Shown: positions 2,859 to 17,811 of the stretch, piece by piece
How positions within the stretch are numbered: the stretch's first letter is position 1
Layout of the letters: every line of letters begins with the position of its first letter
Assembly (NCBI RefSeq): GCF_022508225.1
Contig: NZ_JAETXJ010000005.1
Location: 62,001-126,000 of the forward strand
Length of the DNA stretch: 64,000 nucleotides
Direction of reading: 5' to 3'
Source: Desulfovibrio sp. UIB00
GTDB lineage: Bacteria; Desulfobacterota; Desulfovibrionia; Desulfovibrionales; Desulfovibrionaceae
Program-made: the position numbers and the translations under genes
Notes under the pieces: model-generated
What the model saw: only the letters and a program-made list of their open reading frames with translations
Databases searched by the model: none
What the model was told of the DNA's origin: nothing

Positions 2859-3005
2859 TGTATGCTCCCGTGGCATTGGTAAAACGGCAGGGCAATAACT
2901 ACCCTCGCTTACGTCTGTTATGTATGATGGATTTGTTACAATTGCGTGGCGCAAGCCCGTATTTGCCCATGCAGCGGGCCATGCTTTGCCGTATTTGTCA
3001 CGCGC

Positions 3006-3044
3006 AAATAAAAAGGGCGTCCGCCTGTGCATGGCGGACGCCCC
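3006..3044 (-). terminator. Rho-independent terminator of the chemoreceptor gene
   Basis: An 11-bp perfect stem GGGCGTCCGCC/GGCGGACGCCC (3015-3025 with 3033-3043) with a 7-nt loop is followed on the minus strand by TTTTTATTT. It lies directly downstream of the chemoreceptor stop codon and upstream of ppk, so it should separate the two transcripts. Confidence 0.88.
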
Positions 3045-3071
3045 GATGGGTGTTGTAAGGCCTGGGTCGCG

Positions 3072-5162
3072 TTAGCCGCGCTTCATGTCGGCTACCAGCT
3101 TGCTCAGGGTGTTGGCCTGAGTTGCCAGATCCGCCACGGAGCCGGAAGCGGCGTTCATGGCGTGGGCTGTCTGCTCGGAGCGCTCATTGACCTCAAGAAT
3201 GGACTTGTTGATCTCGTCGCTGCTTGCGGACTGTTCCTCGCTGGCAGTTGCGATGGCGCGCACCTGATCGGCAGTGGAAAGCGCGTTGTTGACGATTTCG
3301 CGCAGGGCTTCGCCCGACTTGTTGGCAAACGTTGTGGCGGTTTGCACCTGTTCAAGGGCGTTGTCCATGCTTTGCACGCTCTTGGATGTGCTTTGCTGGA
3401 TGGCCGCAATGGCGTTGCCCACATCGTTGGTGGAAGCCATGGTCTTTTCCGCCAGTTTACGCACCTCATCGGCCACCACGGCAAAGCCGCGACCGGCCTC
3501 GCCAGCACGGGCCGCTTCAATGGCGGCGTTGAGGGCCAGCAGGTTGGTCTGGTCGGCTATGTCTGAAATAACGTTCATGATGCGGCTGATGGCCTGGGCA
3601 TGCTCGTTGAGCGTACCCATGTCATCCTTGAGCGCCATGGAAACAGAGTGCACGCGGTCAATGCTTTGCAAGGCCTGCTGCACGATTTTTTCGCCGTTTT
3701 CGGCATTGGCTCTGGTCTGGTCAGACATGTCTGAAGCGGACGAGGCATTGCTCGCCACTTCGCGCACGGTGGCGTTCATCTGGTTCATGGCTGTGGCAGC
3801 ATCGCCGAGGCGCAGGGCAGACTCGCTCGAAAGGTGGTTGGCCTGGCCTATGTGGGCTTCAAGCTCGTTGGACGCGGAGGATATGACCTTCACCACTTCT
3901 TCCAGTTGCATGGCGGCAGAGAGCATGCCCTCGCGGCGGGCGTTTTCCGCCTCTTTGCGGGCTTCTTCGGCCTGTTCTGTGGCGGCTTTTGCAAGGGCGG
4001 TCTGCTGTTCGGCCTCCTCGCCTTTCTGGCGGGCGGTGGTGATCATTTCCTGCAGATTGCTCACCATGTTCAGCAGGGCAGCGTGCAGCTCGGCCAGTTC
4101 GCCGTAGAATTGCCGGGCGTCAAGGTTCACGTTGAGATCGCCGGTGGCGACCTTGTCGGCCTCCTTGACAATAAGGCTCAAGGGCCGATTGATGGAGCGC
4201 GCTATGACCCAGGCGATCAGCAGCATGATCAGGGCCACGCTGAGGGTAATGATTACGCTGGCGCGTACGGCGGTGTTGGTGGCCGCAAGAATTTCTTCCT
4301 CAGACTGGAGCATGAGGATCTTCCAGCCATGCGGCGTGGTGAGCACATTGGCGCGTACTTCGTGCCCGTTTACAACGGCTTGCAGCATGCCGTCCTTGGC
4401 GCCAAACAGCTTCACAAGGCCGGGATCCTGTATGTCCTTGCCAATGATTTTGCCCGTCAGATCCTTGTTGCGCGGGTCGCAGAGGATGCGCCCCGTATTT
4501 TCGAGCAGCATGAAGTAGCCGGTCTTGCCGAAATTGAGTTCGGCAAAGCGCTGCGACAGGCCGTTGAGCGAAACGTCGATGCCCAGAACGCCCGTAAAGT
4601 CGCCCCGCCGCGAAAACATTTTGTGCGTGATGGCTACCACCAGCTCACCGGTGATGGAAAGGTAGCTGTCGGCCAAGCCGACCTTTTGCGACGAAGCCGC
4701 GCGCTGCGTGTACCAGGGCCGCTTGCTGGTATTGTAGCCAGCGGGTACCTTGGTATTGTCGGCAGAGGTCGCGTAGCTGCCGTCAGTGTAGCCTGCGTAG
4801 GCTTCCACGTAATCTTCTGAGCCTTCGTCAAGCCGCACCAGCGGCTGAACGGTTTTGAAGGCATCTACCGAAAGATCGGCCCGAAGAAAAACGTCCGCTT
4901 CTTTATTGTTGGAGAAGTTGGGGAAAAGACCCACAGCTTCAGCAATGTAAGGTTCCTGCGCCAGAAGGGCGACGTCGCGTTCCGCCCCGCTGATGAATGT
5001 TTCCACATAGTTGTTCATGAGGCGCAACTGGGTTGAGGAATTGGAAGTATAGCTTTCCTCGGCATTGTTGCGCATGGTCATGATCATAAAGGGCAGGGTG
5101 CCTGCTGCCATCACAATAATTGTAAAAAGGAATCCAAGAATAACGCGCAGTCTGATAGTCAT
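3072..5162 (-). CDS. Methyl-accepting chemotaxis protein with dCache-type sensor
   Basis: The 696-residue protein has a first membrane segment at about residues 6-28, a periplasmic dCache-like sensor of about 270 residues (including RPWYTQRAA and [16 protein letters not shown]), and a second membrane segment at about 301-322. A HAMP region and coiled coil follow, then the signalling hairpin tip ([19 protein letters not shown], about residues 535-555). It should bind a small ligand outside the cell and control CheA/CheW. The Cache pocket resembles amino-acid sensors, but the ligand cannot be read from sequence. The ATG at 5162 follows AGGAG by 7 nt; an upstream in-frame TTG at 5180 has no ribosome site. 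It is monocistronic, with its own terminator. Confidence 0.93.
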
Positions 5163-5465
5163 AGCAAGGCTCCTGCTCAATCTGAAGTGGACATGCGTCC
5201 AGCCTGGCGGATCTGACGCTAATAAAACTATCGGTTTGTTTTTCAGAAGCTTAATATCTGAAATGCAAATGTAACATGAAAAAAACGATGGGGGGCAAGG
5301 GACACATACGTATTATCCCCCGTGCGCGCAAGAGGGGCAGGCCGTACTTGCCTGCTGCCCATGAGTGCGTATACCGTCAGGTTGCAATATGGCTGCATCC
5401 GGTGTTGCTGCGCGGTCAGTCTGCGCACCGCCGGTTAATCAAAATTAAAGATCGGGAAGGTTTGC
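5163..5465. other. Divergent intergenic region between chemoreceptor and Nramp genes
   Basis: Apart from the possible sigma-28 promoter and the two ribosome-binding sites, no gene or strong hairpin is seen. A plus-strand frame opening at the ATG at 5276 crosses into the Nramp gene; it has no family resemblance and is not called. Confidence 0.5.
5228..5253 (-). promoter_or_regulatory. Possible sigma-28 (FliA) promoter for the chemoreceptor
   Basis: On the minus strand TAAG (5253-5250), a 14-nt spacer and ACCGATAG (5235-5228) resemble the sigma-28 consensus TAAA-N15-GCCGATAA. Transcription would start about 58 nt before the chemoreceptor ATG. Chemotaxis genes are common sigma-28 targets. The match is imperfect at both elements. 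Confidence 0.4.
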
Positions 5466-6731
5466 ATGTGTGCAACAAGCTTTTGGAGCAAGTGCAATGT
5501 GTCAGGCATTGCCCACAAGGGCGAAGAGTTCCTTAAATTTGTAGGGCCGGGGCTGCTGGTGACAGTTGGATTTATCGACCCTGGCAACTGGGCCGCCAAT
5601 CTGGCTGCCGGGGCGGAATACGGTTATTCCCTGCTGTGGATGGTGAGCCTTTCCACCTTTATGCTCATTGTATTGCAGCACAATGCGGCCCACCTGGGTA
5701 TTGTGACGGGCAAATGCATGGCCGAGGCCATAACGGAGTATTTTCCCTGCACCCTTGGTCGGCTTGTGCTGTTCAGTGCCTTTGGCGCTTCGGTCATGAC
5801 CAGCATGGCTGAAATCCTCGGCGGTGCCATTGCCCTGCGCATGCTCTTTTCCATCCCCCTGCCCATTGGCGCAACTCTCACGGCCCTTCTGGCTGGCGGA
5901 CTTTTGCTGTTCAATTCGTACAATAAAGTTGAAAAGTGGATCATCGGTTTTGTGTCGCTGATCGGCATCGCCTTTCTGTATGAATTGTGGCTGGTGCCTG
6001 CCGGATGGCTCCCCCAGGCTGCTGTGGGCTGGGTGATGCCAGCCTTTCCCGAAGGTTCCATGCTGGTGATCATGAGCGTTCTTGGCGCGGTGGTCATGCC
6101 GCACAATCTTTTTTTGCATTCCGAAATTATTCAGAGCCGTCAGTGGAATCTTGAGGGCGATGCCTTTATCAAAAAAAGGCTCGACTATGAATTTTTTGAC
6201 ACGCTCTTTGCCATGCTGGTGGGTTGGGCCATCAACAGCGCCATGATCATTCTGGCTGCTGCGGTGTTCTGGACCGCGGGGGAGCATGTGACGGAACTTG
6301 AACAGGCCCGCGACCTGCTCAAACCCCTGCTGGGCGACAGCGCCTCCGTGATTTTTGCCGTGGCCCTGCTGTTTGCCGGGGTGGCCTCGTCCGTCACATC
6401 GGGCATGGCGGGCGGCATCATGACATCGGGCATGGCGGGCGAACCCTACAATACCAAGGACAAGCACAGCGTCATGGGCATTGTTGGCTCGCTGGGCTGC
6501 GGCCTTGTGCTCATCTGGCTGACCAGCGACCCCTTCAAGGGCTTGCTGCTTTCGCAGATGGCTCTTTCGGTACAGTTGCCCATCACCATGGTTTCGCTGG
6601 TGGCGCTGACATCGTCCCCCAAGGTCATGGGCAAATACGCCAACGGCAAGGGCACAAAACTGCTGCTCTACACGCTCACGGGCATCGTGACCGTGCTGAA
6701 CATCATGCTGCTCTTCAGCGCGCTGGATTAG
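5466..6731 (+). CDS. Nramp family divalent metal transporter
   Basis: The 421-residue polytopic protein has the two metal-site motifs of Nramp carriers: DPGNW in TM1 (about residue 40) and MPHN in TM6 (about residue 208). Both Asp/Asn and the metal-selective Met are retained. It should import Mn2+ or Fe2+ with protons across the inner membrane. GGGAAGG precedes the ATG by 5 nt. The N-terminal extension contains two cysteines and is longer than typical. It is transcribed alone, divergent from the chemoreceptor. The metal (Mn versus Fe) is not decided by sequence; a manganese-riboswitch-controlled exchanger elsewhere in the window makes Mn plausible. Confidence 0.9.
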   Translation: MCATSFWSKCNVSGIAHKGEEFLKFVGPGLLVTVGFIDPGNWAANLAAGAEYGYSLLWMVSLSTFMLIVLQHNAAHLGIVTGKCMAEAITEYFPCTLGRLVLFSAFGASVMTSMAEILGGAIALRMLFSIPLPIGATLTALLAGGLLLFNSYNKVEKWIIGFVSLIGIAFLYELWLVPAGWLPQAAVGWVMPAFPEGSMLVIMSVLGAVVMPHNLFLHSEIIQSRQWNLEGDAFIKKRLDYEFFDTLFAMLVGWAINSAMIILAAAVFWTAGEHVTELEQARDLLKPLLGDSASVIFAVALLFAGVASSVTSGMAGGIMTSGMAGEPYNTKDKHSVMGIVGSLGCGLVLIWLTSDPFKGLLLSQMALSVQLPITMVSLVALTSSPKVMGKYANGKGTKLLLYTLTGIVTVLNIMLLFSALD

Positions 6732-6773
6732 CGGCATTTCTGAACCAGCCCAAGCATGTACCTGTCAGCGGAC

Positions 6774-6812
6774 ACAATATTGTATTGCCGTGTGGCTATA
6801 GTACAATATTGT
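6774..6812 (+). promoter_or_regulatory. Two 10-bp palindromes overlapping a possible promoter
   Basis: ACAATATTGT, itself a perfect palindrome, occurs at 6774-6783 and again at 6803-6812, 29 bp apart. The first overlaps a possible -35 (TTGTAT, 6780-6785) and the second a possible -10 (TACAAT, 6802-6807), 16 nt apart. The spacing of nearly three helical turns puts both copies on the same DNA face, as expected for a dimeric repressor. They lie 126-164 bp before the substrate-binding-like gene. Confidence 0.5.
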
Positions 6813-6852
6813 CTGGATCGTGGATGAAGGTGAAAGGTAAATTGACTTACAT

Positions 6853-6888
6853 ATCGGCATGTTGAACGGAATCTTTCATCGGCATGTT
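6853..6888 (+). repeat. Direct repeat of 11 bp in the leader of the SBP-GTPase-ABC operon
   Basis: ATCGGCATGTT occurs at 6853-6863 and 6878-6888, a 25-bp period, about 50 bp before the first gene. It could be a second regulator site or a leader element. Confidence 0.45.
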
Positions 6889-6937
6889 CCTTGCTGTACC
6901 CAGAGCGGTTCCCAAACTTTTTGCGGAAAGAGGCACC

Positions 6938-7954
6938 ATGAAAAGGCTTGAACATCTCATGCAGGCATTGCAGCAGCAGGATGATACCCCCGTCATGGGC
7001 AAAACAGACCTGCTGCTCTATGCCCCCTGCCCGGTAAAGCTTGTGGTCAAGGAGCGCATAGAGGCCATTGCCGCTGCGGCAAATCCTTCCCTGACGGCGC
7101 ATATACCTATGGGCTGCACGTCGGTTGATCCTTATGACCCGCTGTATATGGAATCAGACGTGAACAAGCTGCCCGCCGTTATCGCGTCCATTGGCTACGG
7201 CGACTTCTGGCGCGGCGAATTTGTGCGGCGTTTTGTCAACACGGGCGTATTTGAAAGCGTACAGCCCCGCGTACTGAATCCCCTGTATGCCGATGCCGGG
7301 CTGATTGACCCTGCCGGGGCCTATACCATCTATGGCGTGACCCCGTATATTTTTCTGGTAGACCACAAAAAGCTGGACGGCCTGCCAGCGCCGAAAAACT
7401 GGGCAGACCTCATGAACCCACGTTATCGCGGGCAGATTGTCATGTGCGGCGATGGCGACGACATGGCCGATGCCGTGCTGCTCAACCAGTACAAGGATTT
7501 TGGCGAACCGGGCGTCACCGGGCTTGCCGCCAACATTAAAAGCTTCATGCACTCCTCGCGCATGGCAAAGGTCTGCGGCACAGCCGCGCCGGATGCCGGG
7601 GGCATCTTTATCATCCCCCTGTTTTTTGCCGAGAGCACCAAGCTTCCGGAACACGTGGAAATTGTCTGGCCTGAGGACGGCGCAGCCGCAAGCCCCCTCT
7701 ACCTGCTGGCAAAAAAGTCTGAAAAAGCCCGTCTGGCCCCGGTGCTGGATTTCTTTGCCAATGGCTTTGGCGGCATAGACAGCGCCGCATGGTTCATCCC
7801 TGTGGACGGTTCGCGCCCTTCGCAGTTGCCCGCAGGGGCCAAGCTCAAATGGGTGGGCTGGGATTTTGTGGAAAGCAACGATGTGAACAGTCTGCGCGAT
7901 ATTCTGGCCCTGAAGTTCCGGCGTTTGCAGGCGGGCACGGCATGCGTCTCATAA
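6938..7954 (+). CDS. Substrate-binding-protein-like protein without signal peptide
   Basis: The 338-residue protein has the overall composition and motifs of iron/spermidine-type ABC binding proteins (class D fold; for example NWADLMNPRYRGQIVMCG and a second-lobe PLYLLAKKSEKA region). However, it starts MKRLEHLMQALQQQ, with no hydrophobic leader or lipobox, so it should stay in the cytoplasm. Cysteines in LYAPCPVK and MGCTSVDPYDP near the N-terminus could hold a metal. I chose the ATG at 6938 because AGAGG precedes it; a further upstream ATG at 6884 has no ribosome site. The stop codon overlaps the next gene by 13 nt. The three-gene operon encodes no membrane permease, so a classic import role is doubtful; a metallo-chaperone or cofactor role is an inference. 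Confidence 0.8.
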   Translation: MKRLEHLMQALQQQDDTPVMGKTDLLLYAPCPVKLVVKERIEAIAAAANPSLTAHIPMGCTSVDPYDPLYMESDVNKLPAVIASIGYGDFWRGEFVRRFVNTGVFESVQPRVLNPLYADAGLIDPAGAYTIYGVTPYIFLVDHKKLDGLPAPKNWADLMNPRYRGQIVMCGDGDDMADAVLLNQYKDFGEPGVTGLAANIKSFMHSSRMAKVCGTAAPDAGGIFIIPLFFAESTKLPEHVEIVWPEDGAAASPLYLLAKKSEKARLAPVLDFFANGFGGIDSAAWFIPVDGSRPSQLPAGAKLKWVGWDFVESNDVNSLRDILALKFRRLQAGTACVS

Positions 7955-8643
7955 CCGTGGCGGGGCCGCCCGCGTGCGGTAAAACCTCGCTGGTGGTAAG
8001 GGCTGGCGCGGCCTTGAAGGCGCGGGGCGCGACCTGCGCCGTCATCAAGTTTGACTGCCTGCAAACCCGCGACGACGAACTCTACGCGGCGGCGGATATT
8101 CCCGTTTCCGTGGCACTTTCCGGCGGGCTGTGCCCCGACCATTTTTTTGCCACCAATCTGGAAGAAGCCTTTGCCTGGGCTGGAGAAACCGGGGCCAACA
8201 TCTGCATTATCGAAACTGCTGGCCTGTGCAACCGTTGCTCGCCACATCTGCGCGGAGCCTTGGCCCTGTGCGTCATCGACAACCTCATGGGCATTGACGC
8301 GCCGGAAAAAATTGGGCCAATGCTGCGGCTGGCAGATGTGGTGGCCGTGACCAAGGGGGATCTGGTTTCGCAGGCAGAGCGCGAGGTCTACCGCTACCGC
8401 ATCCGGCAGATGAACCAGCGGGCGGTTATCCGCCACGTGAACGGCCTGACAGGGCAGGGTTGCGCGGAGCTTGCCGCCATCATGGCCATCGCGCCGGACA
8501 TTGCCTCCGTTACCGACATGCGGCTGCGCTTCGCCATGCCCGCAGCCATCTGCTCCTATTGCCTGAGCGAAATGCGCATTGGCGCGCGCTACCAAAAGGG
8601 CAACGTCAAAAAGGCGGAATTTGGAGAGGGCCATGGAGCGTGA
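7942..8643 (+). CDS. HypB/CooC-like P-loop GTPase with CxxC motifs
   Basis: The 233-residue protein starts MRLITVAGPPACGKTS, a Walker A loop (residues 8-16). ETAG (91-94) and TKGD fit the G3 and G4 boxes of SIMIBI GTPases of the HypB/UreG/CooC group, which load nickel or other metals into enzymes. Cysteine pairs CNRC (96-99) and CSYC near the C-terminus, plus single cysteines at 32, 39, 64 and 88, are unusually many and suggest metal binding. The ATG at 7942 lies inside the end of the preceding gene, and the stop overlaps the next start by 11 nt, so the three proteins are translationally coupled. The client enzyme is unknown. Confidence 0.82.
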   Translation: MRLITVAGPPACGKTSLVVRAGAALKARGATCAVIKFDCLQTRDDELYAAADIPVSVALSGGLCPDHFFATNLEEAFAWAGETGANICIIETAGLCNRCSPHLRGALALCVIDNLMGIDAPEKIGPMLRLADVVAVTKGDLVSQAEREVYRYRIRQMNQRAVIRHVNGLTGQGCAELAAIMAIAPDIASVTDMRLRFAMPAAICSYCLSEMRIGARYQKGNVKKAEFGEGHGA

Positions 8644-9421
8644 AAATATGGAGCTGTCCCTGCGCAGTCTGAGCCTGACCCCAGGCCGCGACAAGGCAGG
8701 CCAGCCGGAAAAGACGCAGATTCACTTCCGCCCCGGTGAAATCACGGCCCTGTTGGGGCCAACGGGCGCTGGCAAGAGCCGCTTTTTGAGCGATATTGAG
8801 TCGCTGGCCGCAGGCGATACCCCAACTGGCCGCACCGTATTGCTCAACGGCGCGGAACCCGATGAAGATACGCGCTTTGACCTACAGGGGCGGCTGGTGG
8901 CCCAGCTGACCCAGAACATGAATTTTGTGCTGGACATGGGCGTGCTAGATTTTTTGCGCACCCACGCGCTAAGCCGCGAGGTGCCAGACCCTGAAGCCGC
9001 TGCGGCCAGGGTTTTTGCCGCCGCCAATGAACTGGCTGGCGAATCCTTTGACGGGTGTACGCAGTTGACCCAGCTTTCCGGCGGGCAGTCGCGAGCCCTG
9101 ATGATTGCGGATACAGCCCTGCTCAGCTGGTCGCCCGTGCTGCTCATTGACGAAATTGAAAATGCCGGAGTGGACAAGCGCAAGGCCCTTGATCTGCTGC
9201 TGGCCTCGGATAAGATTATTGTCATGGCAACGCACGATCCCGTGCTGGCTTTGGCGGCAGACAGGCGACTGGTGTTCGAGCAGGGGGCCGTGGCATCGGT
9301 GCTGGCGCGTACCCCGGCGGAGGATGTCCTTCTGGCTCGGCTGGAAGAGATGGAGCGGCAGTGGTCTGAGGTGCGCGAGGCTCTGCGCAAAGGGGCGGAC
9401 ATGTCCCCCTGGGTTCTTTAG
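8633..9421 (+). CDS. ABC-type ATPase of the SBP-GTPase-ABC operon
   Basis: This 262-residue protein is an ABC nucleotide-binding domain with Walker A GPTGAGKS (42-49), signature LSGGQ, Walker B VLLIDEIEN and switch histidine in ATHD. The glutamate after the Walker B aspartate is present, so ATP hydrolysis is expected. The C-terminal 40 residues are helical and charged. No transmembrane partner is encoded here. GAGAGGG precedes the ATG at 8633, and a second in-frame ATG at 8648 is possible. The close coupling to a GTPase and a leaderless binding protein argues for a soluble ATP-driven machine or for a permease encoded elsewhere. Confidence 0.85.
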   Translation: MERENMELSLRSLSLTPGRDKAGQPEKTQIHFRPGEITALLGPTGAGKSRFLSDIESLAAGDTPTGRTVLLNGAEPDEDTRFDLQGRLVAQLTQNMNFVLDMGVLDFLRTHALSREVPDPEAAAARVFAAANELAGESFDGCTQLTQLSGGQSRALMIADTALLSWSPVLLIDEIENAGVDKRKALDLLLASDKIIVMATHDPVLALAADRRLVFEQGAVASVLARTPAEDVLLARLEEMERQWSEVREALRKGADMSPWVL

Positions 9422-9529
9422 CTGGTATTTTTTGCGGGGGGAAACGCCCCGTACCAATAGTCATATGCTTTACTTGCAGTTTTAACAGGCTCTGTCTGAA
9501 GCAGGGCAAGAGCAGAATGTGCAATATGT

Positions 9530-9569
9530 CAAAGGCAGAGGCCGCCCCAAGGGACGGCCTCTGCCTTTG
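9530..9569. terminator. Bidirectional terminator between ABC ATPase and 63-aa gene
   Basis: A perfect 15-bp stem CAAAGGCAGAGGCCG (9530-9544) pairs with 9555-9569 around a 10-nt loop. Short T-rich stretches follow on both strands. The genes on either side converge on it. Confidence 0.75.
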
Positions 9570-9589
9570 TATATCTTGTGAAACGAACG

Positions 9590-9781
9590 TTATTTTTTTT
9601 CAAACATCTCGATCTGGGCAACCACCATGCGGCTGAACACGGCGGCAATGCTCTCTGCATCCACAGTGGCGGAGCCGGAACCGGCAAAGGCTTCGGCCAC
9701 CTTTTGCGCATTGCTCACCATGGTGGAGAAAATCTGCGGGGTCACATTGGCGTTCATGGCGCGCTGATAGGTGGAATCCAT
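9590..9781 (-). CDS. Small protein of unknown function, 63 aa
   Basis: A 63-residue frame starts at an ATG with AAAGGA 6 nt upstream and ends next to the convergent terminator. The protein (MDSTYQRAMNANVTPQIF at the start, ending in MFEKK) is amphipathic and probably helical, with no cysteines or membrane segment. It lies 87 nt downstream of hypE on the same strand and may be co-transcribed. I do not recognise the family. The good ribosome site and the terminator immediately after the stop support a real gene. Confidence 0.62.
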   Translation of the reverse strand: MDSTYQRAMNANVTPQIFSTMVSNAQKVAEAFAGSGSATVDAESIAAVFSRMVVAQIEMFEKK

Positions 9782-9868
9782 ATTTTTTCCTTTCAGGCGG
9801 GAGGCTCCCGCATTCAGTTGACACAAAGAGAACAGTTCCAGGGGGCAAAAGAACCGTAGTGGCATGCC

Positions 9869-10873
9869 CTAACAGATGCGGGGCAACTGCGCGCCCTCCA
9901 GCATACCCAGCAGGCGGCGGCCCCCTATGAGGGTTTGCAGCGCCACCTGCGCCTTGCCTTCCGTTACCGTGCCGATGCGGGCCGCTTCCTTGCCGTAGGG
10001 CGAGCGGCGCATGGCCTCAAGGGCTGCTTCTGCGCTGCTTTCGGGCACAATGCAGATGCACTTGCCTTCGTTGGCAAGGTACAGAGGATCCATGCCGAGG
10101 AAGGAACAGCCGTTGCGCACGGCTTCGTGAACGGGAACGCTGGCCTCGTCAAGCAGGATGGACACCTGCGACTGCTCGGCGATTTCGTTGAGCGTGGTGG
10201 CAAGCCCGCCGCGAGTGGGGTCGCGCAGCACATGCACCTCGCCCACAGTGTTGATGATGTCTTCAATCATGTGGTTCAGCGGGGCGGAGTCCGAGGCCAC
10301 GTCCGTAAGGAAGGACAGGCCTTCGCGGCTGCCCATGACCGTGAGACCGTGGTCGCCCATGGCTCCGCTGACCAGTACTACATCGCCGGGTCGGGCATTG
10401 TGCCCCGAGGGCGAGGGCGAGGCAAACACCTGCCCGATGCCTGTGGTATTGATGAAAATCTTGTCGCAAGCACCGCGCGGCACAACCTTGGTGTCGCCCG
10501 TCACAATGCTCACCCCGGCCTCGCGGGCTGCCGCGCCCATGTCGGCCACAACGCGCTCGAGGGTTTCGAGGGGCAGGCCTTCTTCAAGGATAAATCCGCA
10601 GCTCAGGTAGCGGGGCCGCGCGCCCAGCATTGCAACGTCGTTGACGGTGCCGTGCACAGCCAGACTGCCGATGCTGCCGCCTGCGAAAAACAGGGGCGTC
10701 ACCGTGTAGGAATCGGTACTCATGGCCAGCGGGCCGGAAAGATCGGTCAAAAGCGCTGCATCGTCCATGCGTTCCAGCAGGGGATTGGCAAAATGGCGCA
10801 TGAAGCACTGGGCAATAAGGCGCTGCGAGGCTCTGCCGCCGCTGCCAGCATCAAGAAGAAGGCACTCGTCCAT
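9869..10873 (-). CDS. hypE: Hydrogenase maturation protein HypE
   Basis: The 334-residue protein belongs to the PurM/AIR-synthase-like family and ends in PRIC. The terminal cysteine is the residue that is carbamoylated by HypF and dehydrated to the thiocyanate donating CN- to the [NiFe] centre. GSGGRASQRLI near the N-terminus and the TGDTKVVPRG block are also typical. The start codon shares one base with the hypD stop (TAATG), and CGGAG precedes it. HypE works with HypC, HypD and HypF; only hypD is adjacent here. Confidence 0.96.
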   Translation of the reverse strand: MDECLLLDAGSGGRASQRLIAQCFMRHFANPLLERMDDAALLTDLSGPLAMSTDSYTVTPLFFAGGSIGSLAVHGTVNDVAMLGARPRYLSCGFILEEGLPLETLERVVADMGAAAREAGVSIVTGDTKVVPRGACDKIFINTTGIGQVFASPSPSGHNARPGDVVLVSGAMGDHGLTVMGSREGLSFLTDVASDSAPLNHMIEDIINTVGEVHVLRDPTRGGLATTLNEIAEQSQVSILLDEASVPVHEAVRNGCSFLGMDPLYLANEGKCICIVPESSAEAALEAMRRSPYGKEAARIGTVTEGKAQVALQTLIGGRRLLGMLEGAQLPRIC

Positions 10874-11964
10874 TATCGCTCCGAATATTTAAAGTAGGCC
10901 GCGCAACTGCCCTCGGTGGAAACCATACAGGGGCCAACGGGGTTGGCTGGGGTGCAGCGCTTGCCGAAAAGCGGGCAGTCCGGCGGGGTAATGCGCCCCT
11001 TGAGCACATCGCCGCAGCGACAGCCGGGCAGGGGGGGGACATCCGGCAAGGTGAGGTCAAGGCGCTTCATGGCGTCCATGCTCTCATATTCCGGGCGCAG
11101 GGCCAGGCCGCTCTGGGGTATGCGGCCTATGCCGCGCCACAGGGCGTCCGCCGGTTGGAAAAACTGTTCCAGCAGGGCGCGGGCGCGGGGGTTGCCCGTG
11201 TCGTCCACGGCGCGGGGATAGGCATTGACCACATCGGGCTTGCCGTCGCGCATCTGCTCGGCCATGAGGCAGAGGGCCAGCAGAATGTCGGCGGGCTGGA
11301 AGCCGCCCACAATGCCGGGAACATGAAAATCGCGCGCCAGAAAGGCGTAAGGCTCCAGCCCAAGAATGGTGGAAACGTGCCCCGGCAGCAAAAAGGCTTC
11401 TACGCCGCACTGGCTGTCTTCAAGCAGGATACGCAGGGCAGGGGGCACAAGCTTGTGCAGGGAGAGCACGCAGAAGTTGTTCAGCCCGCGCTGCTGGGCG
11501 GTGAGCAGGGTGGCGGCCACGGTGGGGGCGGTGGTTTCAAAACCAATGCCCAGAAAAACCACTGTATCGCCGGGGTTGGCCGCCGCAAGGGTCAGAGCGT
11601 CCAGCGGCGAATAGACAATTTCAACCCGCGCGCCCTGGGCCTGAGCGTGTTTGAGGCTGAGGCCGCCGGGGCCGGGCACGCGCAAAAGGTCGCCAAAAGT
11701 GGCTATGATGACGCGGTCACGGCCCGCAAGCTCAAGAAAAGCAGCTACTTCCGCATCGTGCGTGACGCATACGGGGCAGCCGGGGCCGGAAAGGTGCGTT
11801 ACCGATTTGGGCAGGAGCGAGCGCAGGCCGCTCTGGAAGATGGCAACTGTATGGGTGCCGCACACTTCCATGAAACGCATTGTGCGACCATCAAGGGCGC
11901 GGTTAAGGCGATCAAGAAGGCTGTGGCACAGTTGCGGATTCTGAAAGGCGGTTTCCAGTTGCAT
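10873..11964 (-). CDS. hypD: Hydrogenase maturation protein HypD
   Basis: The 363-residue iron-sulfur protein assembles the Fe(CN)2CO unit with HypC. It has the conserved CGTHT (Cys35), GPGCPVC (Cys63, Cys66) and a Cys-rich C-terminal [4Fe-4S] region (GCRCGDVLKG, GPCMVSTEGSCAAY). I chose the ATG at 11964: AAAGGA is 6 nt before it, whereas the ATG at 11970 directly abuts that site. It is translationally coupled to hypE. The 346-bp upstream region contains two long palindromes and no gene. Confidence 0.96.
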   Translation of the reverse strand: MQLETAFQNPQLCHSLLDRLNRALDGRTMRFMEVCGTHTVAIFQSGLRSLLPKSVTHLSGPGCPVCVTHDAEVAAFLELAGRDRVIIATFGDLLRVPGPGGLSLKHAQAQGARVEIVYSPLDALTLAAANPGDTVVFLGIGFETTAPTVAATLLTAQQRGLNNFCVLSLHKLVPPALRILLEDSQCGVEAFLLPGHVSTILGLEPYAFLARDFHVPGIVGGFQPADILLALCLMAEQMRDGKPDVVNAYPRAVDDTGNPRARALLEQFFQPADALWRGIGRIPQSGLALRPEYESMDAMKRLDLTLPDVPPLPGCRCGDVLKGRITPPDCPLFGKRCTPANPVGPCMVSTEGSCAAYFKYSER

Positions 11965-12032
11965 GGGCATTCCTTTTTTGCGGCCCGCAGGGGATCGGCG
12001 GGCAAAACTCTGGCGGCATTCTCCGGGGCAAA

Positions 12033-12130
12033 GGCTCGGCCATTACTGGCGGTTCCGGCAAGGAGAAAGGCTTTTTACCTGCAACGCATGTGCTGCATCC
12101 AGCAGGAATAAAAAGCCTTTCTGCCGAGCC
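12033..12130. repeat. Long interrupted palindrome upstream of hypD
   Basis: The right arm 12109-12130 (22 nt) is fully complementary to 12033-12040 plus 12064-12077. The left arm therefore carries a 23-nt insertion. The inner stem GAAAGGCTTTTTA/TAAAAAGCCTTTC (12065-12077 with 12109-12121) is perfect. The minus strand shows poly-T within the stem, so it may also slow or terminate transcription. Confidence 0.7.
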
Positions 12131-12163
12131 TTGAATGTAAAATGGTTGTGTGTATCAGGTCCA

Positions 12164-12310
12164 TGATATGTTAACAATATGAGAAATTTTGTTCCCTGCC
12201 AAGGAAGTAAGCCTTTTTATGGAGAGAGTGTACTGCTTCGGTACTCGACCGGAATAAAAAGGCTTCCTGACGCAGGCAGGGGGCAACAGGGCCATATTGT
12301 TAATATATCA
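12164..12310. repeat. 147-bp MITE-like nested palindrome between argC and hypD
   Basis: Outer arms TGATATGTTAACAATATG (12164-12181) and 12293-12310 match at 17 of 18 positions in inverse. Inside lie GTTCCCTGCC/GGCAGGGGGCAAC, then GGAAG..AGCCTTTTTAT/ATAAAAAGGCTTCC (12203-12220 with 12254-12267), and an apical GTAC..GTAC loop. The whole element folds into one imperfect hairpin. It abuts the argC stop codon exactly. A miniature inverted-repeat element or a structured RNA are both possible. Confidence 0.65.
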
Positions 12311-13366
12311 TTAGGCCAGCGGGGCCAAAGTATTGAGGCCCGTTTCTACCGGCAGCCCGCACATGAGGTTGGCGTTGGCCATGGCCTGACCGGATGCGCC
12401 CCTGCACAGGTTGTCGATGGCAGAAACGATGATGAGCCGCCCCGTACGGGGGTCTACCACAAGACCCAGATCGCAGAACATGCTGCCGCGCACAAAACGC
12501 GTTTCCGGCAGCGCTCCCTTGGGCAGAATGCGAACCCACGGGCTGTGTTCCCACGTGCGGGTAAAGACCTCGCGCACTTCATCCAGGCTGGTGGCGGGGT
12601 TTTTGAGCTTGGTATAGATGGTGGACAAAATGCCCCTGTTGGTGGGCAAGATGTGCGTGTTGAACGAAATCCGCATGTCGTGGCCCGCCAGCAGGCTGAG
12701 TTCCTGTTCGATTTCCGGCGTATGCCGGTGCGTGGGCAGGCCGTAGGCGCGGAAATTGTCGGAAATCTCGCAGAACAACGTAGGCACTGCTGCCTTGCGG
12801 CCAGCGCCCGTGGCCCCGGATTTGGCGTCCACTACAATGTCATCGGTATGCACGAGGTCATTCTTGATGGCGGCGTACAGGCCCAGTATCACCGAGGTGG
12901 GGTAGCAACCTGGGTTGGCGATAAGTTTCGCACCTGCGATTTCAGCCGCATATAGTTCGGGCAGGCCGTACACGGCCTTGTGCAGCAGATCAGTGCATAC
13001 GTGCTCGCGCTTGTACCATGTGGCATATGTTTCTGGGTCGCGCAGGCGAAAATCCGCCGAGAGGTCAACAACTTTCACCCCGGCGCGCAGCAGCATTTCA
13101 GCCATGTCCATGGCTGTGCCTGCGGGCACGGCAAGAAAGACCACATCGCACTGACGGGCGGCTTCCTGCGGGTCAAAAACGCTGATGACCACATCCGCGC
13201 CGGGCATGTGGTTCAGAAAAGGATAGAAATCCCCCAGCCGTTTGCCCGATTCTGCCCGCGAACAGGCCATGGCAAGCCGCATGGAAGGATGGCTCACGAG
13301 AAGCCGCGTCAGTTCCATGCCCGCGTAGCCGGTAATGCCCACCAGACCCACATTGATTGTCTTCAT
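12311..13366 (-). CDS. argC: N-acetyl-gamma-glutamyl-phosphate reductase
   Basis: The 351-residue enzyme reduces N-acetylglutamyl phosphate to the semialdehyde with NADPH in arginine synthesis. The Rossmann motif GITGYAGMEL is at residues 10-19, and NPGCYPTS carries the catalytic cysteine. The length and C-terminal GASGQAMAN region are typical. AAGGAT lies upstream of the ATG. No other arginine genes are adjacent. The stop codon lies at the edge of the 147-bp palindrome. Confidence 0.96.
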   Translation of the reverse strand: MKTINVGLVGITGYAGMELTRLLVSHPSMRLAMACSRAESGKRLGDFYPFLNHMPGADVVISVFDPQEAARQCDVVFLAVPAGTAMDMAEMLLRAGVKVVDLSADFRLRDPETYATWYKREHVCTDLLHKAVYGLPELYAAEIAGAKLIANPGCYPTSVILGLYAAIKNDLVHTDDIVVDAKSGATGAGRKAAVPTLFCEISDNFRAYGLPTHRHTPEIEQELSLLAGHDMRISFNTHILPTNRGILSTIYTKLKNPATSLDEVREVFTRTWEHSPWVRILPKGALPETRFVRGSMFCDLGLVVDPRTGRLIIVSAIDNLCRGASGQAMANANLMCGLPVETGLNTLAPLA

Positions 13367-13460
13367 GCCACCGATCCTTTGGAAACTATGGTCGATAGTA
13401 GTGACGGAGCCGCGCCACGCAGACGGCAGATTGCCGCTGGCCGTGCCGCACCGCAGAGCC

Positions 13461-13775
13461 TTAAGCTTTTTTTGACTGACAGGCGCAGTCCGGGCCGCAC
13501 TTCATCACGAACTTCATGCGCAGCTCGTAGAGGATGCTCTCCAGCAGCTTTCGCTCCTGTTCTTCCAGTCCATTTTCAGTTTTGGCGCGCAGCATTTCCA
13601 GTACATCAATGCTGTGCTTTGCCAGCGGCAGGTTTGTTTCCGTACCGCCGGTTTCGGGATTGGGCACCTCGCCCAGATGCACCAATGCCGATGACGCCAG
13701 CGAAATGATAAAGGTCGAAAACGTCACTTCCGGCATGGGGCCATCGGCCTTGCAGCCGCAGTTATTGTCACTCAT
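13461..13775 (-). CDS. DUF1844 family protein
   Basis: The 104-residue protein matches the DUF1844 pattern: FSTFIISLASSALVHLGEVPNP followed by LAKHSIDVLEMLRAKTENGL and a C-terminal helix. It begins with CGCK and ends CGPDCACQSKKA, a Cys-rich tail that could bind a metal or cluster. GAGGT precedes the ATG. The function of the family is unknown. It lies 94 nt upstream of argC on the same strand. Confidence 0.88.
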   Translation of the reverse strand: MSDNNCGCKADGPMPEVTFSTFIISLASSALVHLGEVPNPETGGTETNLPLAKHSIDVLEMLRAKTENGLEEQERKLLESILYELRMKFVMKCGPDCACQSKKA

Positions 13776-13875
13776 GGCGACCTCGTGGCACGTAAACGGT
13801 TACGGTAACTGCAATTTGCGCCAAATGCCTGCGTCCAACATACAAGCTTTTACCGCCAGCGCAAGGGCTTGCGCC

Positions 13876-15060
13876 CTAGCTGTGGATCAGCGGCAGCGGC
13901 TCGCCTGGTTTGCCCGCCAGGGCCATGCGATAAGCTGCCAGCGCTTCTTCAAGATAGTCACGCGAGCCGCAGTGTCCACCCGCTTCAATGATGCCCCGGT
14001 TAAGGGCATGCAGCCCGGCCACCAGATCGGCCCAGTCCACCCAGCCCATATGGCCTATGCGCACCATGCGGCCCTTCATGTGATCCTGACCGCCAGCCAT
14101 GCACACTCCGTAGTTATCCATGGCGATGCGCAGCACCTCGGCGCCGTCAACGCCCGCAGGCAGCATGACGCTGGTGATGCCCCAGGCAAAGTGGGTTTTG
14201 GCGTAAAGCTCAAGGCCCATGGCGGCAACGCCTGCACGGGCCAGCATGGTCAGCGCCCACTGCTTGGCGTAAATGGCTTCAAGACCGTTTTCCAGCAGCA
14301 TTTCAAGACTTTCGTCCAGGCCGACCACAAGGTTCACCGCAGAGGTGAACAATGTTTGCCCCTGAGCGATCTTGGCTCGTTCCTTGGGCAGGTTGAAATA
14401 GAAGCAGCCGGGCGTGACGCTTTCGGCCCTTTTCCATGCGCGGGGCGAGAGCGCCAGCAGCGCAAGGCCGGGGGGCAGCATGAGGCCTTTTTGCGAGCCG
14501 GTGACAAGGCAGTCAATACCCCACTGATCCATGGGGCAGGGCGCGAGGCTCACGGCAGAGATGCCGTCCACCAGCAGCAGAGTGTCGGTATCGCGGGTGA
14601 TGCGCGCCACTGCTTCCACAGGGTGCAGTACGCCGGTGGAGGTTTCGGAGTGCTGGATAAGCACCGCCGCGATGCCCGGATCGGCCTTGAGGGCCGTTGC
14701 AACGGCCTGCGGGTCAACGGCTTCGCCCCACGGCACTTCAAGTGTGGTGACTTCAAGCCCGCGCGAAACCGCGATCTCGCGCCAGCGCTGACCAAACTTG
14801 CCGCCCTCGACCACCAGTACCCGCTGGCCGGGGGTAAACAGACTGTACACCGCCGCCGTCATGGCGCCTGTGCCGGAACAGGAAAGGGGCAGAACCACAT
14901 CTGCGGTGCCGAACAGCACGCGCAGGCGCTCCTGAACCCGGCCCATCACGGCCTTGAATTCGCTTTTGCGGTGGTGGATCATGTCTTTGGCAAGCACAAG
15001 ACGTACGCGCTCCGGCAGAGGCGTGGGGCCAGGGGTGAGCAGGCGGACTTTGTTCAGCAT
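13876..15060 (-). CDS. Class V aminotransferase (alanine-glyoxylate / serine-pyruvate type)
   Basis: The 394-residue PLP enzyme has the N-terminal LLTPGPTPLPERV motif of alanine-glyoxylate aminotransferases, SGTGAMTAAVYSL (cofactor phosphate site), and TGSQKGLMLPPG with the Schiff-base lysine. It should transfer amino groups between small amino acids and glyoxylate or pyruvate. It starts 15 nt after the methyltransferase gene ends, with its ribosome site AAGGA overlapping that junction, so both are one operon. A short GC hairpin (13859-13874) follows the stop. Substrate choice cannot be read from sequence. Confidence 0.9.
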   Translation of the reverse strand: MLNKVRLLTPGPTPLPERVRLVLAKDMIHHRKSEFKAVMGRVQERLRVLFGTADVVLPLSCSGTGAMTAAVYSLFTPGQRVLVVEGGKFGQRWREIAVSRGLEVTTLEVPWGEAVDPQAVATALKADPGIAAVLIQHSETSTGVLHPVEAVARITRDTDTLLLVDGISAVSLAPCPMDQWGIDCLVTGSQKGLMLPPGLALLALSPRAWKRAESVTPGCFYFNLPKERAKIAQGQTLFTSAVNLVVGLDESLEMLLENGLEAIYAKQWALTMLARAGVAAMGLELYAKTHFAWGITSVMLPAGVDGAEVLRIAMDNYGVCMAGGQDHMKGRMVRIGHMGWVDWADLVAGLHALNRGIIEAGGHCGSRDYLEEALAAYRMALAGKPGEPLPLIHS

Positions 15061-15075
15061 GTCAAATCCTTCTAG

Positions 15076-16257
15076 TTACGCGCCCACTTGGGCGATAAAG
15101 CACTTCAGATAGGCCGTTTCGGGCATGGCGGCGTGGATGGGATGATCCGGCCCCTGGCCCCCGGCAAAAAGAATACGGGCATGCAGTTTGCGCTTGGCGG
15201 CGGCCTGCGTCAAGCAAGCGCGCAAAGACTGCGTTTCAAGATGGTGCGAACAGGACGAGGTTGCAAGTATGCCCCCCGGCGCCAGCAGTTGCACGGCCAG
15301 ATCATTGGCCTGCTTATAGGCCGCCAGGCCAAGGGCCGCGTCCTTGCGGCGCTTGATGAAGGCCGGGGGATCAAGGCTGATGGCCTGAAAGCGGCGGCCC
15401 TCGTCGCGCATCTGGCGCAGCAGGTCAAAGGCGTCGCCGCACAGGGTTTGGGCTTCGCAGCCGGGGGCGTTGGCTCGGGCGTTTTCTTCCGCAAAGGCGA
15501 GCGCCAGGGCCGAGGCGTCCACAAAGGTGACGGAGCGCGCCCCCGCAGCTGCTGCGGTAACGCCGAACCCGCCAACATAGCTGAAAATATCCAGCACGTC
15601 GGCATCCTTGGCATAGCGCGCCAGTTCCGCCCTGTTGGGGCGCTGGTCGTAAAACCAGCCGGTTTTCTGGCCTGTGGCGCAGGGCGCGAAAAAGCGGCAG
15701 CCGTTTTCCGGCACTTCCAGCCTTTCGGGCAACAGGCCTTCGCTCTCTTGCTCGCGGGAGAGGTTTTCAAGCCCGCGCGCGGCAAGGTCGTTGGCCCAGA
15801 GAATGGACGTGGGGCGCAGCAGCGTGTGCAGGGCAGCTGTGAGCGCCTCACGCCTTTGTTCCATGCCCGCAGTGGTGACCTGTACGGTCAGGTGGTCGCC
15901 GTAACGGTCAATGACCAGACCGGGCAAAAAATCGCCCTCGCCGTGGCAAAGCCTGTACCAGGGGCCGGGATAGAGGCGCTGGCGCAGGGCCAGTGCCGAT
16001 TCCAGCCTTTGGGTCAGCAGGGCTTCGTCCAGTTCCACATCGGGCTTGCGGCTGTGCAGGCGGGCGCAGATAAGCGAAGCCGAGTTGACGCACACGCTGC
16101 CAAGGGGCGCGCCGCGCCAGTCGCACAGTGTCGCGGATTCACCGGGGGCAAAGTCGGTGAGCGGGCTTTGTTTTACGTCCACCTCATTGGCGAAAATCCA
16201 GAGATGCCCGGCGCGCAGACGCCGATCTTCATTTTTTTTGAGACAGAGTTTGCGCAT
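15076..16257 (-). CDS. rlmI: RlmI-like 23S rRNA (cytosine-C5) methyltransferase
   Basis: The 393-residue protein has an N-terminal PUA domain (about residues 1-80), an EEHUD-like linker and a Rossmann SAM domain. VLDIFSYVGGFGVTAA is the SAM loop, DPPAF motif IV, and SCSHH carries the catalytic cysteine in motif VI. This architecture is that of RlmI, which makes m5C1962 in 23S rRNA. It is flanked at 3 and 18 nt by genes on the same strand. The exact target nucleotide is inferred from the family only. Confidence 0.88.
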   Translation of the reverse strand: MRKLCLKKNEDRRLRAGHLWIFANEVDVKQSPLTDFAPGESATLCDWRGAPLGSVCVNSASLICARLHSRKPDVELDEALLTQRLESALALRQRLYPGPWYRLCHGEGDFLPGLVIDRYGDHLTVQVTTAGMEQRREALTAALHTLLRPTSILWANDLAARGLENLSREQESEGLLPERLEVPENGCRFFAPCATGQKTGWFYDQRPNRAELARYAKDADVLDIFSYVGGFGVTAAAAGARSVTFVDASALALAFAEENARANAPGCEAQTLCGDAFDLLRQMRDEGRRFQAISLDPPAFIKRRKDAALGLAAYKQANDLAVQLLAPGGILATSSCSHHLETQSLRACLTQAAAKRKLHARILFAGGQGPDHPIHAAMPETAYLKCFIAQVGA

Positions 16258-16260
16258 ATG

Positions 16261-17811
16261 TTACTTTCCCGCTGCTTCGGCGGGGGCGGATTTTTGGGAG
16301 GTTTGCGCCGCAAGGGCGTTGATCTGTTCTTCCAGCGTTTTCTGACCGGCGACAGAGGAGCATGTAAACAGCGCGCCGGGGTCGTTCAGAGCAGCCAGTA
16401 TTTGCAGAATACCTATACGCTGGCCCTTGGCGCTGGCGGCTTCAAGCTGACCGGGGCGTTGCACAAAGGTCAGCAGGGCCTGACGTATGGCGTTGTTCTG
16501 CTGGGTGGGGGCAAGATCCAGCCCCTTGTCCAGAGTCTGGTGCAGCGCCGTGGCCGCCGCGCGCCCGTCGTGGGAAAGATTGAGCCCAACCCAGGCCAGC
16601 GCGCCGTGATCCTTCACGGCGAGGTGCAGATCGCTGAAGCTTTGCATCAGCAGGGCCTGTTCGCTGGTGCTGATGATTCCGGCATCGTACAGGGTGAACG
16701 AGCAGTCCACGTCCGCGAGGCCTTCGGCCTTGATGGACATTGTTTTTTTGTGCGAAGCGGTGCTCAGACCAAGGCTTTCAAAGGTCATGCTGGCCTTGAG
16801 CGCCGGCATGGCAAGGCCGGAAGCATCCTCAAGCAGGCTTTTGGAGGCCGCAAGGTCGCGGATAAAGCTGGTTGTGTGGCGCGGCGAGTTGGAAAGCCAG
16901 TCAAAACCCACGCTGCCAACAGTCACGCTGCCGTTTTCCACAGCAAAGGTCATGCCCGAGGCGCGCACCTGCCGCACAAGGGGCGGGTCAGCAGCCAGAA
17001 TTTCTTCCACAACCGGGCCAAGGGCCTTAACTGCTGCGTCCATGTCGTTTTCGCTCATGGCGGCTGCGTCCATAAGGCGGTGCAGCAGGCCCAGCTCCGG
17101 CAGGGTGAGGCCGTTGGCTTCAAAGCTCGCCATACGCATGCTCTCGTGCCCATCAAGGCGGCTCTGCATGTCTTCAATGCGCATATGCTCGACTGATGCG
17201 CCGTCCCATCCCTTGATCAGCGATTCTTTAATGGTCAGCTGGGCCAGACCTTCCTTGCCGGGAAGGCTGACGCTCAGAAAAAAGCTGTGCGCCTTGTCTG
17301 CGCCCATGAGGTAGGTGGCGGCCAGCGCGTCAATGGGTGCTCCGTCAAGAAAACGCCCCACCAGTTCACTCTGACTGCGCAGTTCGTCAATTTCTTCGCG
17401 CTGCACCGAGCCTCGGGCCTCGGGCGTGCGCAGGGCCAGATTGCGCAGCACGATGTTTTCGGCCACGGGCATCATGCCCACATCCTTCAGCACCATGGGC
17501 CGCAAAGGGGTGTAGGCCAGCAGCATGCGCATGGGAATGCGGAGCGAAACCTCCGCCACTTCATACGCAAGTGGCCCCTGGGGAGTTTCGCCGCGCAGGC
17601 GCAGGCCGTACAGGGTCAGGGTGCGCGACAAGGGCGAAAATTCCACCCTGTCCACTGCGGCCTGCGTGGATATGCCGTCGCCGGAGATCCCGATGCTCTG
17701 GATGCCCCTCTGCACCTGCCCCTCCACCAGAGGGCTCAGGCCGAAAAACAGACCCAGAAAACCCGCCGCGATCAGAATAACCACGGCGGCTGGCAAATAT
17801 GCTTTTTTCAT
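16261..17811 (-). CDS. Large membrane-anchored protein of unknown function
   Basis: This 516-residue protein has one hydrophobic segment at about residues 7-27 and an otherwise soluble, Leu/Ala/Ser-rich body, so it is probably anchored in the inner membrane with a periplasmic domain. The beginning (VDRVEFSPLSRTLTLYGLRL, about residues 52-71) resembles AsmA or DUF945-like periplasmic repeats, but I cannot assign it. TGGAG lies 8 nt before the ATG. It stops just before the rlmI-like start, so it heads a three-gene operon with the methyltransferase and aminotransferase. Confidence 0.75.
   Translation of the reverse strand: MKKAYLPAAVVILIAAGFLGLFFGLSPLVEGQVQRGIQSIGISGDGISTQAAVDRVEFSPLSRTLTLYGLRLRGETPQGPLAYEVAEVSLRIPMRMLLAYTPLRPMVLKDVGMMPVAENIVLRNLALRTPEARGSVQREEIDELRSQSELVGRFLDGAPIDALAATYLMGADKAHSFFLSVSLPGKEGLAQLTIKESLIKGWDGASVEHMRIEDMQSRLDGHESMRMASFEANGLTLPELGLLHRLMDAAAMSENDMDAAVKALGPVVEEILAADPPLVRQVRASGMTFAVENGSVTVGSVGFDWLSNSPRHTTSFIRDLAASKSLLEDASGLAMPALKASMTFESLGLSTASHKKTMSIKAEGLADVDCSFTLYDAGIISTSEQALLMQSFSDLHLAVKDHGALAWVGLNLSHDGRAAATALHQTLDKGLDLAPTQQNNAIRQALLTFVQRPGQLEAASAKGQRIGILQILAALNDPGALFTCSSVAGQKTLEEQINALAAQTSQKSAPAEAAGK

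Follow-up and report, generated by a model that had tools for sequence, protein, structure and literature searches.

What could a solute-binding protein, a GTPase and an ATP-binding cassette (ABC) ATPase do together when no membrane protein is encoded with them? The question is raised by three genes of Desulfovibrio sp. UIB00, which lie in a stretch of 64,000 nucleotides (nt; contig NZ_JAETXJ010000005.1, positions 62,001 to 126,000), hereafter the window.

6938..7954, + strand: solute-binding protein (SBP) gene of the SBP_bac_6 family, 338 amino acids (aa), open translation, Pfam PF13343
7942..8643, + strand: G3E GTPase gene, 233 aa, open translation, Pfam cobW
8633..9421, + strand: ABC ATPase gene, 262 aa, open translation, Pfam ABC_tran

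The initial annotation had described a three-gene operon with overlaps of 13 and 11 nt and no membrane protein, and this observation is confirmed. Coordinates and translations agree on the overlaps (13 nt between the SBP and GTPase genes, 11 nt between the GTPase and ATPase genes, all on the + strand). The three genes overlap with none for a membrane protein, and an Nramp gene ends 206 nt upstream of them. An in-frame ATG is also found at 6884; the ATG at 6938 and the preceding GGAAAGAGGCA are kept in five relatives. Pfam scores were 198.8 bits for SBP_bac_6, 39.8 bits for cobW (cut-off 20.7) and 50.2 bits for ABC_tran. In an NCBIfam scan neither the SBP nor the GTPase reached the cut-off of any family, nor did the ATPase for any among the best 25 of its 134 families, and a PHROGs search gave nothing useful. 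Among the listed family matches of the three proteins there was none to MoeA, MogA or MobA, and MobB appeared only at E 0.0013-0.04. Our answer to the question, given with moderate confidence, is that the genes may specify a machine that moves a metal, most likely molybdenum or tungsten (Mo/W), within the cytoplasm; it would be composed of a core of two nucleoside triphosphatases (NTPases) and an exchangeable cargo protein.

The trio is a conserved unit. With the window proteins as tblastn queries, the three genes proved adjacent in 22 of 26 loci (two genomes being represented twice), so their linkage is not due to chance. The other four are L052, which ends inside the GTPase gene, L053, whose divergent SBP was recognised later, and L054 and L055, where weak GTPase matches were found and no set (L numbers denote loci and G numbers genomes, G000 being that of the window). 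When 61 genomes, the window's own and relatives, were searched with the GTPase, identity exceeded 50% in four (G000, G011, G013, G053), and the matches in 26 others were weak, 25-32% identical. Identity to the window GTPase was 76-94% in 19 of 21 aligned relatives and 52% in G053 and in a Tissierellia record. A scan of genome contigs gave 21 loci, and the set occurred in 20 of 395 sampled genomes of the window's phylum, Desulfobacterota, in 51 of 398 of a second phylum, that of the Tissierellia record, and in one Fusobacterium record. This last record, L214 (NZ_CP084075.1), is labelled a plasmid; at 2.1 Mb it looks like a chromosome.

Altogether 81 loci were compared, containing 79 distinct GTPases (the members of L045/L081 and of L077/L078 share one GTPase). 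The order SBP, GTPase, ATPase was found in 48 of them and GTPase, ATPase, SBP in 10. In 11 the ATPase and GTPase genes are followed by that of an iron-sulfur (Fe-S) protein, in eight GTPase and ATPase stand without a recognised SBP, and four are partial or were missed by the pattern. These counts are approximate, with wrong-frame open reading frames (ORFs) at some GC-rich loci, L052, L138 and L158 cut by contig ends, and the SBP of L091 missed by the order pattern although found by tblastn. A protein of the DUF364 cluster follows in four SBP-less loci (L140, L143, L145 and L152; Pfam was run on the L145 member). In the type C branch (L094-L096, L158-L166) a small protein with the PF04060 Fe-S motif, scanned at L096, replaces the SBP. 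Because other loci reorder the trio or exchange the SBP for a DUF364 or Fe-S protein, GTPase and ATPase are taken as the core and the SBP as replaceable. This exchange points to the NTPase pair as the engine and to the third gene as what determines the cargo. The binding-like protein, which the initial annotation had cast as cargo carrier, keeps that role in our proposal, but as an interchangeable part.

The core that we propose, as part of the same moderately held reading, would pair a permease-free ABC ATPase with a G3E GTPase that has three Cys/His motifs. The GTPase carries CPDH (64-67) and two CxxC motifs (96-99 and 204-207); only the latter two had been noticed at first, CPDH having been overlooked. 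Their residues C64, H67, C96, C99, C204 and C207 are invariant in all 80 full-length GTPases, 12 of them of the Fe-S-linked type C. The nucleotide-binding motifs are likewise recognisable in alignment A3, which includes among the sequences compared five type C GTPases, 35-38% identical to that of the window. The G1 P-loop GPPACGKT at 8-15 follows GxxxxGKT (G8, G13, K14 and T15 invariant), the Glu of G3 is E91 in IETAG, also invariant, and the NKxD-type G4 is present as a Thr variant, TKGD 137-140, with K138 and D140 invariant. The predicted model (predicted local distance difference test, pLDDT, 90.9) is closest among solved folds to UreG (5xkt, Z 21.0, 184 aligned, root-mean-square deviation (rmsd) 2.3) and HypB (4lps, Z 18.3). 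UreG has a Cys-Pro-His motif, which the Cys-Pro-x-His before G3 recalls; predicted fold, P-loop and the Glu in G3 are further likenesses to UreG and HypB. The window GTPase differs from both by its two extra CxxC motifs, by its partners, an ABC ATPase and an SBP instead of UreE/F/H or HypA, and by scores far below the cut-offs of the UreG (TIGR00101, 20.2 against 204.2 bits) and HypB (TIGR00073, 33.8 against 121.2 bits) families. With the COG0523/CobW GTPases it shares the Pfam cobW match above cut-off; it differs from them in lacking CxCC and in a short C-terminal part with CSYC. CxCC is the motif that characterises COG0523, according to the sections available to us of a review of NTPase metallochaperones (PMC9164220). 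Since this motif is missing and the UreG and HypB cut-offs are not reached, the protein is filed only as a G3E GTPase. The CobW-related selenoprotein family NF041053 was rejected as its identity, the match covering 62 residues and falling far below cut-off.

The ATPase is complete, as first annotated, with Walker A GPTGAGKS, an LSGGQ signature, Walker B VLLIDE and the His loop THD. It has an unusual DEIENAG at Walker B/D-loop, and an ORF with DE(I/L)ENAG is found in 77 of the 81 loci; the exceptions are L093, where there is no exact match, and three loci truncated at contig ends (L052, L138 and L158). It resembles the soluble ABC ATPases that take part in metal-cofactor assembly, such as SufC, in being permease-free and in its metal or cofactor setting, and differs in the DE(I/L)ENAG motif, in its pairing with a GTPase and in that no SufB/D partner was seen. 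SufC is described as a metal-cofactor-assembly ABC ATPase in the same sections of the review (PMC9164220).

The third component lacks a leader, as had been claimed. The highest 15-residue hydropathy mean within the first 60 residues ranged from -0.41 to 1.75 in the 59 set SBPs scanned, none of which has a hydrophobic leader, and from 2.2 to 3.25 in 23 binding proteins that belong to nearby transporters and are presumed to lie outside the cytoplasm; first possible ORF starts were used, so that some N-termini are over-long. The predicted model (pLDDT 91.4) has the two-lobed transferrin-like fold of FbpA-type ferric-iron binding proteins. Its best fold match is SfuA/KfuA (Z 20.4, 281 aligned, rmsd 3.4), and AfuA, P5PA and MctA come just behind the ferric-binding proteins, with small differences in Z. 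The likeness to FbpA/AfuA/MctA-type proteins (SBP_bac_6 and relatives) therefore lies in the two-lobed fold, with Z 17.6-20.4; the window SBP differs in having no signal peptide, no cognate permease in the set and only about 8-14% identity to them. Many second-phylum SBPs are longer, and the three long ones scanned (L085, L128, L214) have a DUF1858 at the N-terminus, that of L128 below cut-off. According to its model, we propose the SBP as a cytoplasmic cargo binder, two-lobed and FbpA/AfuA-like.

Which metal could be handled? The initial annotation had suggested a cytoplasmic machine that loads a metal with both GTP and ATP. Our evidence favours such a machine, but the metal is most likely Mo/W rather than nickel. 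One pointer is the molybdenum cofactor (Moco) riboswitch RF01055, which Rfam scans found in two of 40 short loci (L109, L122), in two of eight (L149, L150) and, twice over, in one of seven (L127). In 74 set-bearing genomes there are 142 such RNAs, in 27 genomes. Three of the 74 have one directly upstream of the first gene of the set. The distance from the end of the aptamer to the gene is 13 nt for the SBP ATG of G737 (608 of L109; the other possible ATG, 587, falls within the aptamer end), 140 nt for the GTPase of G833 and about 205 nt for the first GTPase of G639, where the aptamer is followed by a terminator-like hairpin and a T-run. Other copies precede FecE-, FecB- or FecCD-like genes beside the set, and in G796 and G836 one lies 3-4 kb downstream. 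Observed against expected numbers are 3 and 0.009 directly upstream and 9 and 0.80 within 6.2 kb, the distances having been chosen after data inspection and the Poisson values ignoring relatedness (G465/G584 and G796/G836 look like related pairs by their similar gene order). Collapsed to five lineages, the proximity has p 0.0014.

Molybdate genes point in the same direction. ModE-type matches lie within 25 kb of the set in 7 of 47 cases (0.88 expected), matches above the curated ModE cut-off occurring in only 3 of the 74 genomes, and ModA-type matches in 7 of 84 (1.45 expected). G260, G212 and G417 feed both counts, and each has nifH on the same contig. ModABC-like genes were read beside the set of L052; ModA, a ModB-like gene and a PBP_like helix-turn-helix (HTH) regulator lie near that of L092, MFS_MOT1 and an SBP_bac_11 protein near that of L152, and ModE-type HTH proteins below the curated ModE cut-off near those of L089 and L153. 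A molybdopterin oxidoreductase was found near the set of L089, and FmdE near that of L085. The set thus shares neighbourhoods and, in several genomes, Moco riboswitches with the ModABC, WtpABC, TupABC and MolBCA importers and Moco biosynthesis genes, and differs from these importers in not being itself a transporter.

In Desulfobacterota the set also goes together with nitrogenase. Matches to nifH above cut-off occur in 16 of 17 genomes with type A/B sets and in 83 of the 378 others (Fisher p 1.2e-9); the whole sample has 99 of 395, and type C genomes none of three. With G053, G011 and G013 added, 18 of 20 set-bearing Desulfobacterota have nifH. Within the window's family it is present in all 8 sampled genomes that have the set and in 4 of the 9 that do not. 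Nitrogenase genes may lie close by: nifB at L048, nifH with a homocitrate-synthase-like gene at L034, and nifV (over cut-off) at L088. Two nitrogenase clusters are present in the window genome (L175, L176), one of Mo type with nifD over cut-off and one Fe-only (anf; ANFD 1009 bits, anfK 915 bits), neither of them on the contig of the set. This anf cluster, together with others close to the set in G260 and in G212 (the latter read from sequence), hinted at Fe-only nitrogenase as a specific partner, a lead that was dropped because nine set-bearing genomes have a single nifH match at E 1e-100. A function restricted to nitrogenase was rejected. In the second phylum nifH is not associated with the set: of the 51 genomes that have the set, 13 carry nifH over cut-off and 38 do not, compared with 5 carriers among 29 set-free genomes (consecutive entries and not a random draw). 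Nitrogenase would hence be a client at most and not the general function.

That missing association in the second phylum is one of several observations that weigh against Mo/W. RF01055 was found in none of 20 type A/B Desulfobacterota genomes, the window genome included, under stricter filters; the window has no Rfam match, and 47 of the 74 set-bearing genomes have no riboswitch. ModA proximity within 12 kb is marginal (3 against 0.71 expected, p 0.035), and ModA is missing from most type C genomes (present in 7 of 26, against 40 of 48 type A/B genomes, by a hand count with no set-free background). The nifH gene is missing from set-bearing G436 and G011 (the latter 63% complete), and all linkage counts are uncorrected for shared ancestry. 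Nor does the SBP belong to the ModA type; in fold it mainly matches ferric-iron and sugar-phosphate binders. Other metals are suggested by neighbours: in the window genus the nearest metal neighbour of the set is an Nramp gene, a ZnuA-type gene adjoins the set of the Fusobacterium record, and CobN, TonB and ExbBD genes surround that of L053. The features upstream of the window set are the following.

5466..6731, + strand: Nramp-family divalent metal transporter gene, Pfam PF01566 (349 bits)
6774-6783 and 6803-6812, no strand assigned: operator-like palindrome pair ACAATATTGT in the set promoter region

The Nramp gene, whose counterpart was read at L033, is on the same strand as the set with the palindrome pair between them, and is probably a separate transcription unit. 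The pair consists of two identical 10-bp palindromes with 11-nt inverted arms. Its two copies, against 0.02 expected, are the only ones in the window. It is kept in five relatives with at most one mismatch per copy and spacing altered in some, and is specific to the set promoter among the loci compared. Search for a regulon was unproductive: most of 15 other copies in four genomes fall within unrelated genes, and conservation as a promoter site was seen for none of them, so no regulator is named.

The main rival reading takes up these observations. It keeps the same machine and lets its metal differ by lineage (iron, zinc, manganese, nickel or cobalt in some), Mo/W not being the metal in the window. 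The Nramp, ZnuA-type and CobN/TonB neighbours, the lack of a riboswitch in the window's lineage and the type C genomes mostly without ModA indeed indicate that the metal may differ among branches. Moreover, G3E subfamilies serve different metals, as the review sections describe (PMC9164220). The linkage to nifH, ModE and ModA in Desulfobacterota speaks against this rival, as does the fact that no other-metal marker of equal recurrence was seen in the 81 neighbourhoods, none being tested for proximity. We consider it less likely than Mo/W. Nickel in particular was tried and set aside: hypD and an AIRS-domain gene read as hypE lie near the window set on the opposite strand, but no pointer to nickel was seen in the 81 neighbourhoods, with no genome-wide nickel test. 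Between the set and hypE there is also a 91-aa ORF (window 9593-9865, - strand) with homologues in the same place in the related loci compared; it had no Pfam match at E 1e-5.

A second alternative is that the machine processes an imported metal chelate, a metallophore or metal-tetrapyrrole, the SBP binding the chelate and the NTPases driving metal release. Importers of BtuCDF/FecBCD type lie near sets (a FecCD-like permease family in 11 of 81 loci), as do S-adenosylmethionine methyltransferases and DUF364 proteins. In the part of the DUF364 literature available to us, genome context ties this family to iron, tungstate, vanadium and molybdate transport and chelate chemistry is proposed (PMC2954201). 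The CobN chelatase-like gene of L053 and the presence of MctA, a metal-citrate binder, among the fold matches would fit. However, most Desulfovibrio-type loci have none of these neighbours, and we regard this alternative as improbable. At L053 itself, the variant set has beside it (3004-17809) a TonB receptor, an NMT1-like binding protein, an SsuC-like permease and an ATPase, all read from sequence, in addition to ExbB/ExbD/TonB-like genes and the CobN-like gene. Elsewhere, a Crp-like regulator and/or a hybrid cluster protein (hydroxylamine reductase) adjoin some sets, among them L129, L133, L137, L141 and L142 (cluster c5 in 11 loci, c8 in nine; only the hybrid cluster protein of L141 was family-scanned).

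The composition of SBP plus ABC ATPase, with FecCD- or SsuC-like permeases near some loci, could also be that of an ABC importer of the usual kind, its permease being encoded at another place in the genome and its SBP exported by an unrecognised route. The set contains no cognate permease. A permease conserved beside it in most genomes, for which the initial annotation had advised a check, was not found: those of three ABC families lie within 9 kb in only 20 of 81 loci, a count that excludes singletons such as the peptide- and amino-acid-type ones read at L151 and L164. A canonical transporter ATPase is present in 18 of these 20 loci (L085 and L088 show none in the stretch), and therefore the adjacent transporters seem independent of the set ATPase. 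Among 102 ABC ATPases of the neighbourhood cluster, 71 are set-type, 27 canonical (DEP) and 4 unclear, as classified by one pattern. As the set ATPase has its own DE(I/L)ENAG motif, the G3E GTPase is constant where the SBP varies, and all 59 set SBPs are leaderless, the importer explanation is very unlikely, and the ATPase is filed simply as an ABC ATPase. Least probable of all is a sensing or regulatory device, in which the SBP would sense Mo/W in the cytoplasm and the NTPases would relay the signal. In its favour, Mo/W regulators of TaoR-like architecture contain PBP-like domains, in the portion of PMC11980592 available to us, and the best sequence match of the SBP profile is a two-component-linked binding protein (6lki/6lkg). 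Against it, neither a DNA-binding nor a kinase domain is among the Pfam matches of the window trio, and the metallochaperone-type Cys/His motifs are invariant.

Returning to a cytoplasmic Mo/W-trafficking machine, we infer the following course. Once imported, molybdate or tungstate, as such or in a thio- or chelated form, would be bound by the SBP. Closure of the ABC ATPase, driven by ATP, would release or remodel the bound cargo, and the GTPase would capture the metal on its cysteines. A GTP-gated hand-over could then bring it to the site of cofactor assembly, either of the iron-molybdenum cofactor (FeMo-co) or of the Mo/W pterin cofactor. In the window organism, the machine would help to supply Mo to a cell with both Mo- and Fe-only nitrogenase. 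NifQ delivers Mo to FeMo-co, and the proposed supply of Mo to nitrogenase would be a comparable role.

A three-gene system of this make-up is not described in the literature searched, which left most subscription journals out of scope, in accordance with the first impression that no recognised system has this composition. The available parts of a D. vulgaris fitness paper (PMC10102598; presence of the set in that strain unchecked) do not mention it, nor do those of PMC13197769 and PMC9312934. In the sections available, the metallochaperone review treats G3E GTPases and SufC separately and includes no system pairing a G3E GTPase with an ABC ATPase (PMC9164220). We judge that the set belongs among the NTPase metallochaperone systems, in a form that we did not find described. 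More tentatively, it could represent an undescribed class of cofactor-metal machines, in which the GTPase and the DE(I/L)ENAG ATPase are an obligate pair served by interchangeable cargo proteins (SBP, DUF364 or Fe-S). In anaerobes such machines would mobilise Mo/W, perhaps in thiometallate form, for use in FeMo-co and pterin cofactors.

Free molybdate should be scarce in a cytoplasm rich in sulfide, and to our knowledge the delivery of Mo/W from importer to cofactor assembly sites in anaerobes is poorly known. The set is found in many anaerobic bacteria. If our reading is true, it would offer a widespread candidate carrier, with GTPase and ATPase parts, by which the step from importer to cofactor becomes testable. 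It would also mean that a binding protein and an ABC ATPase can be used without a membrane, with a cargo subunit exchangeable between lineages.

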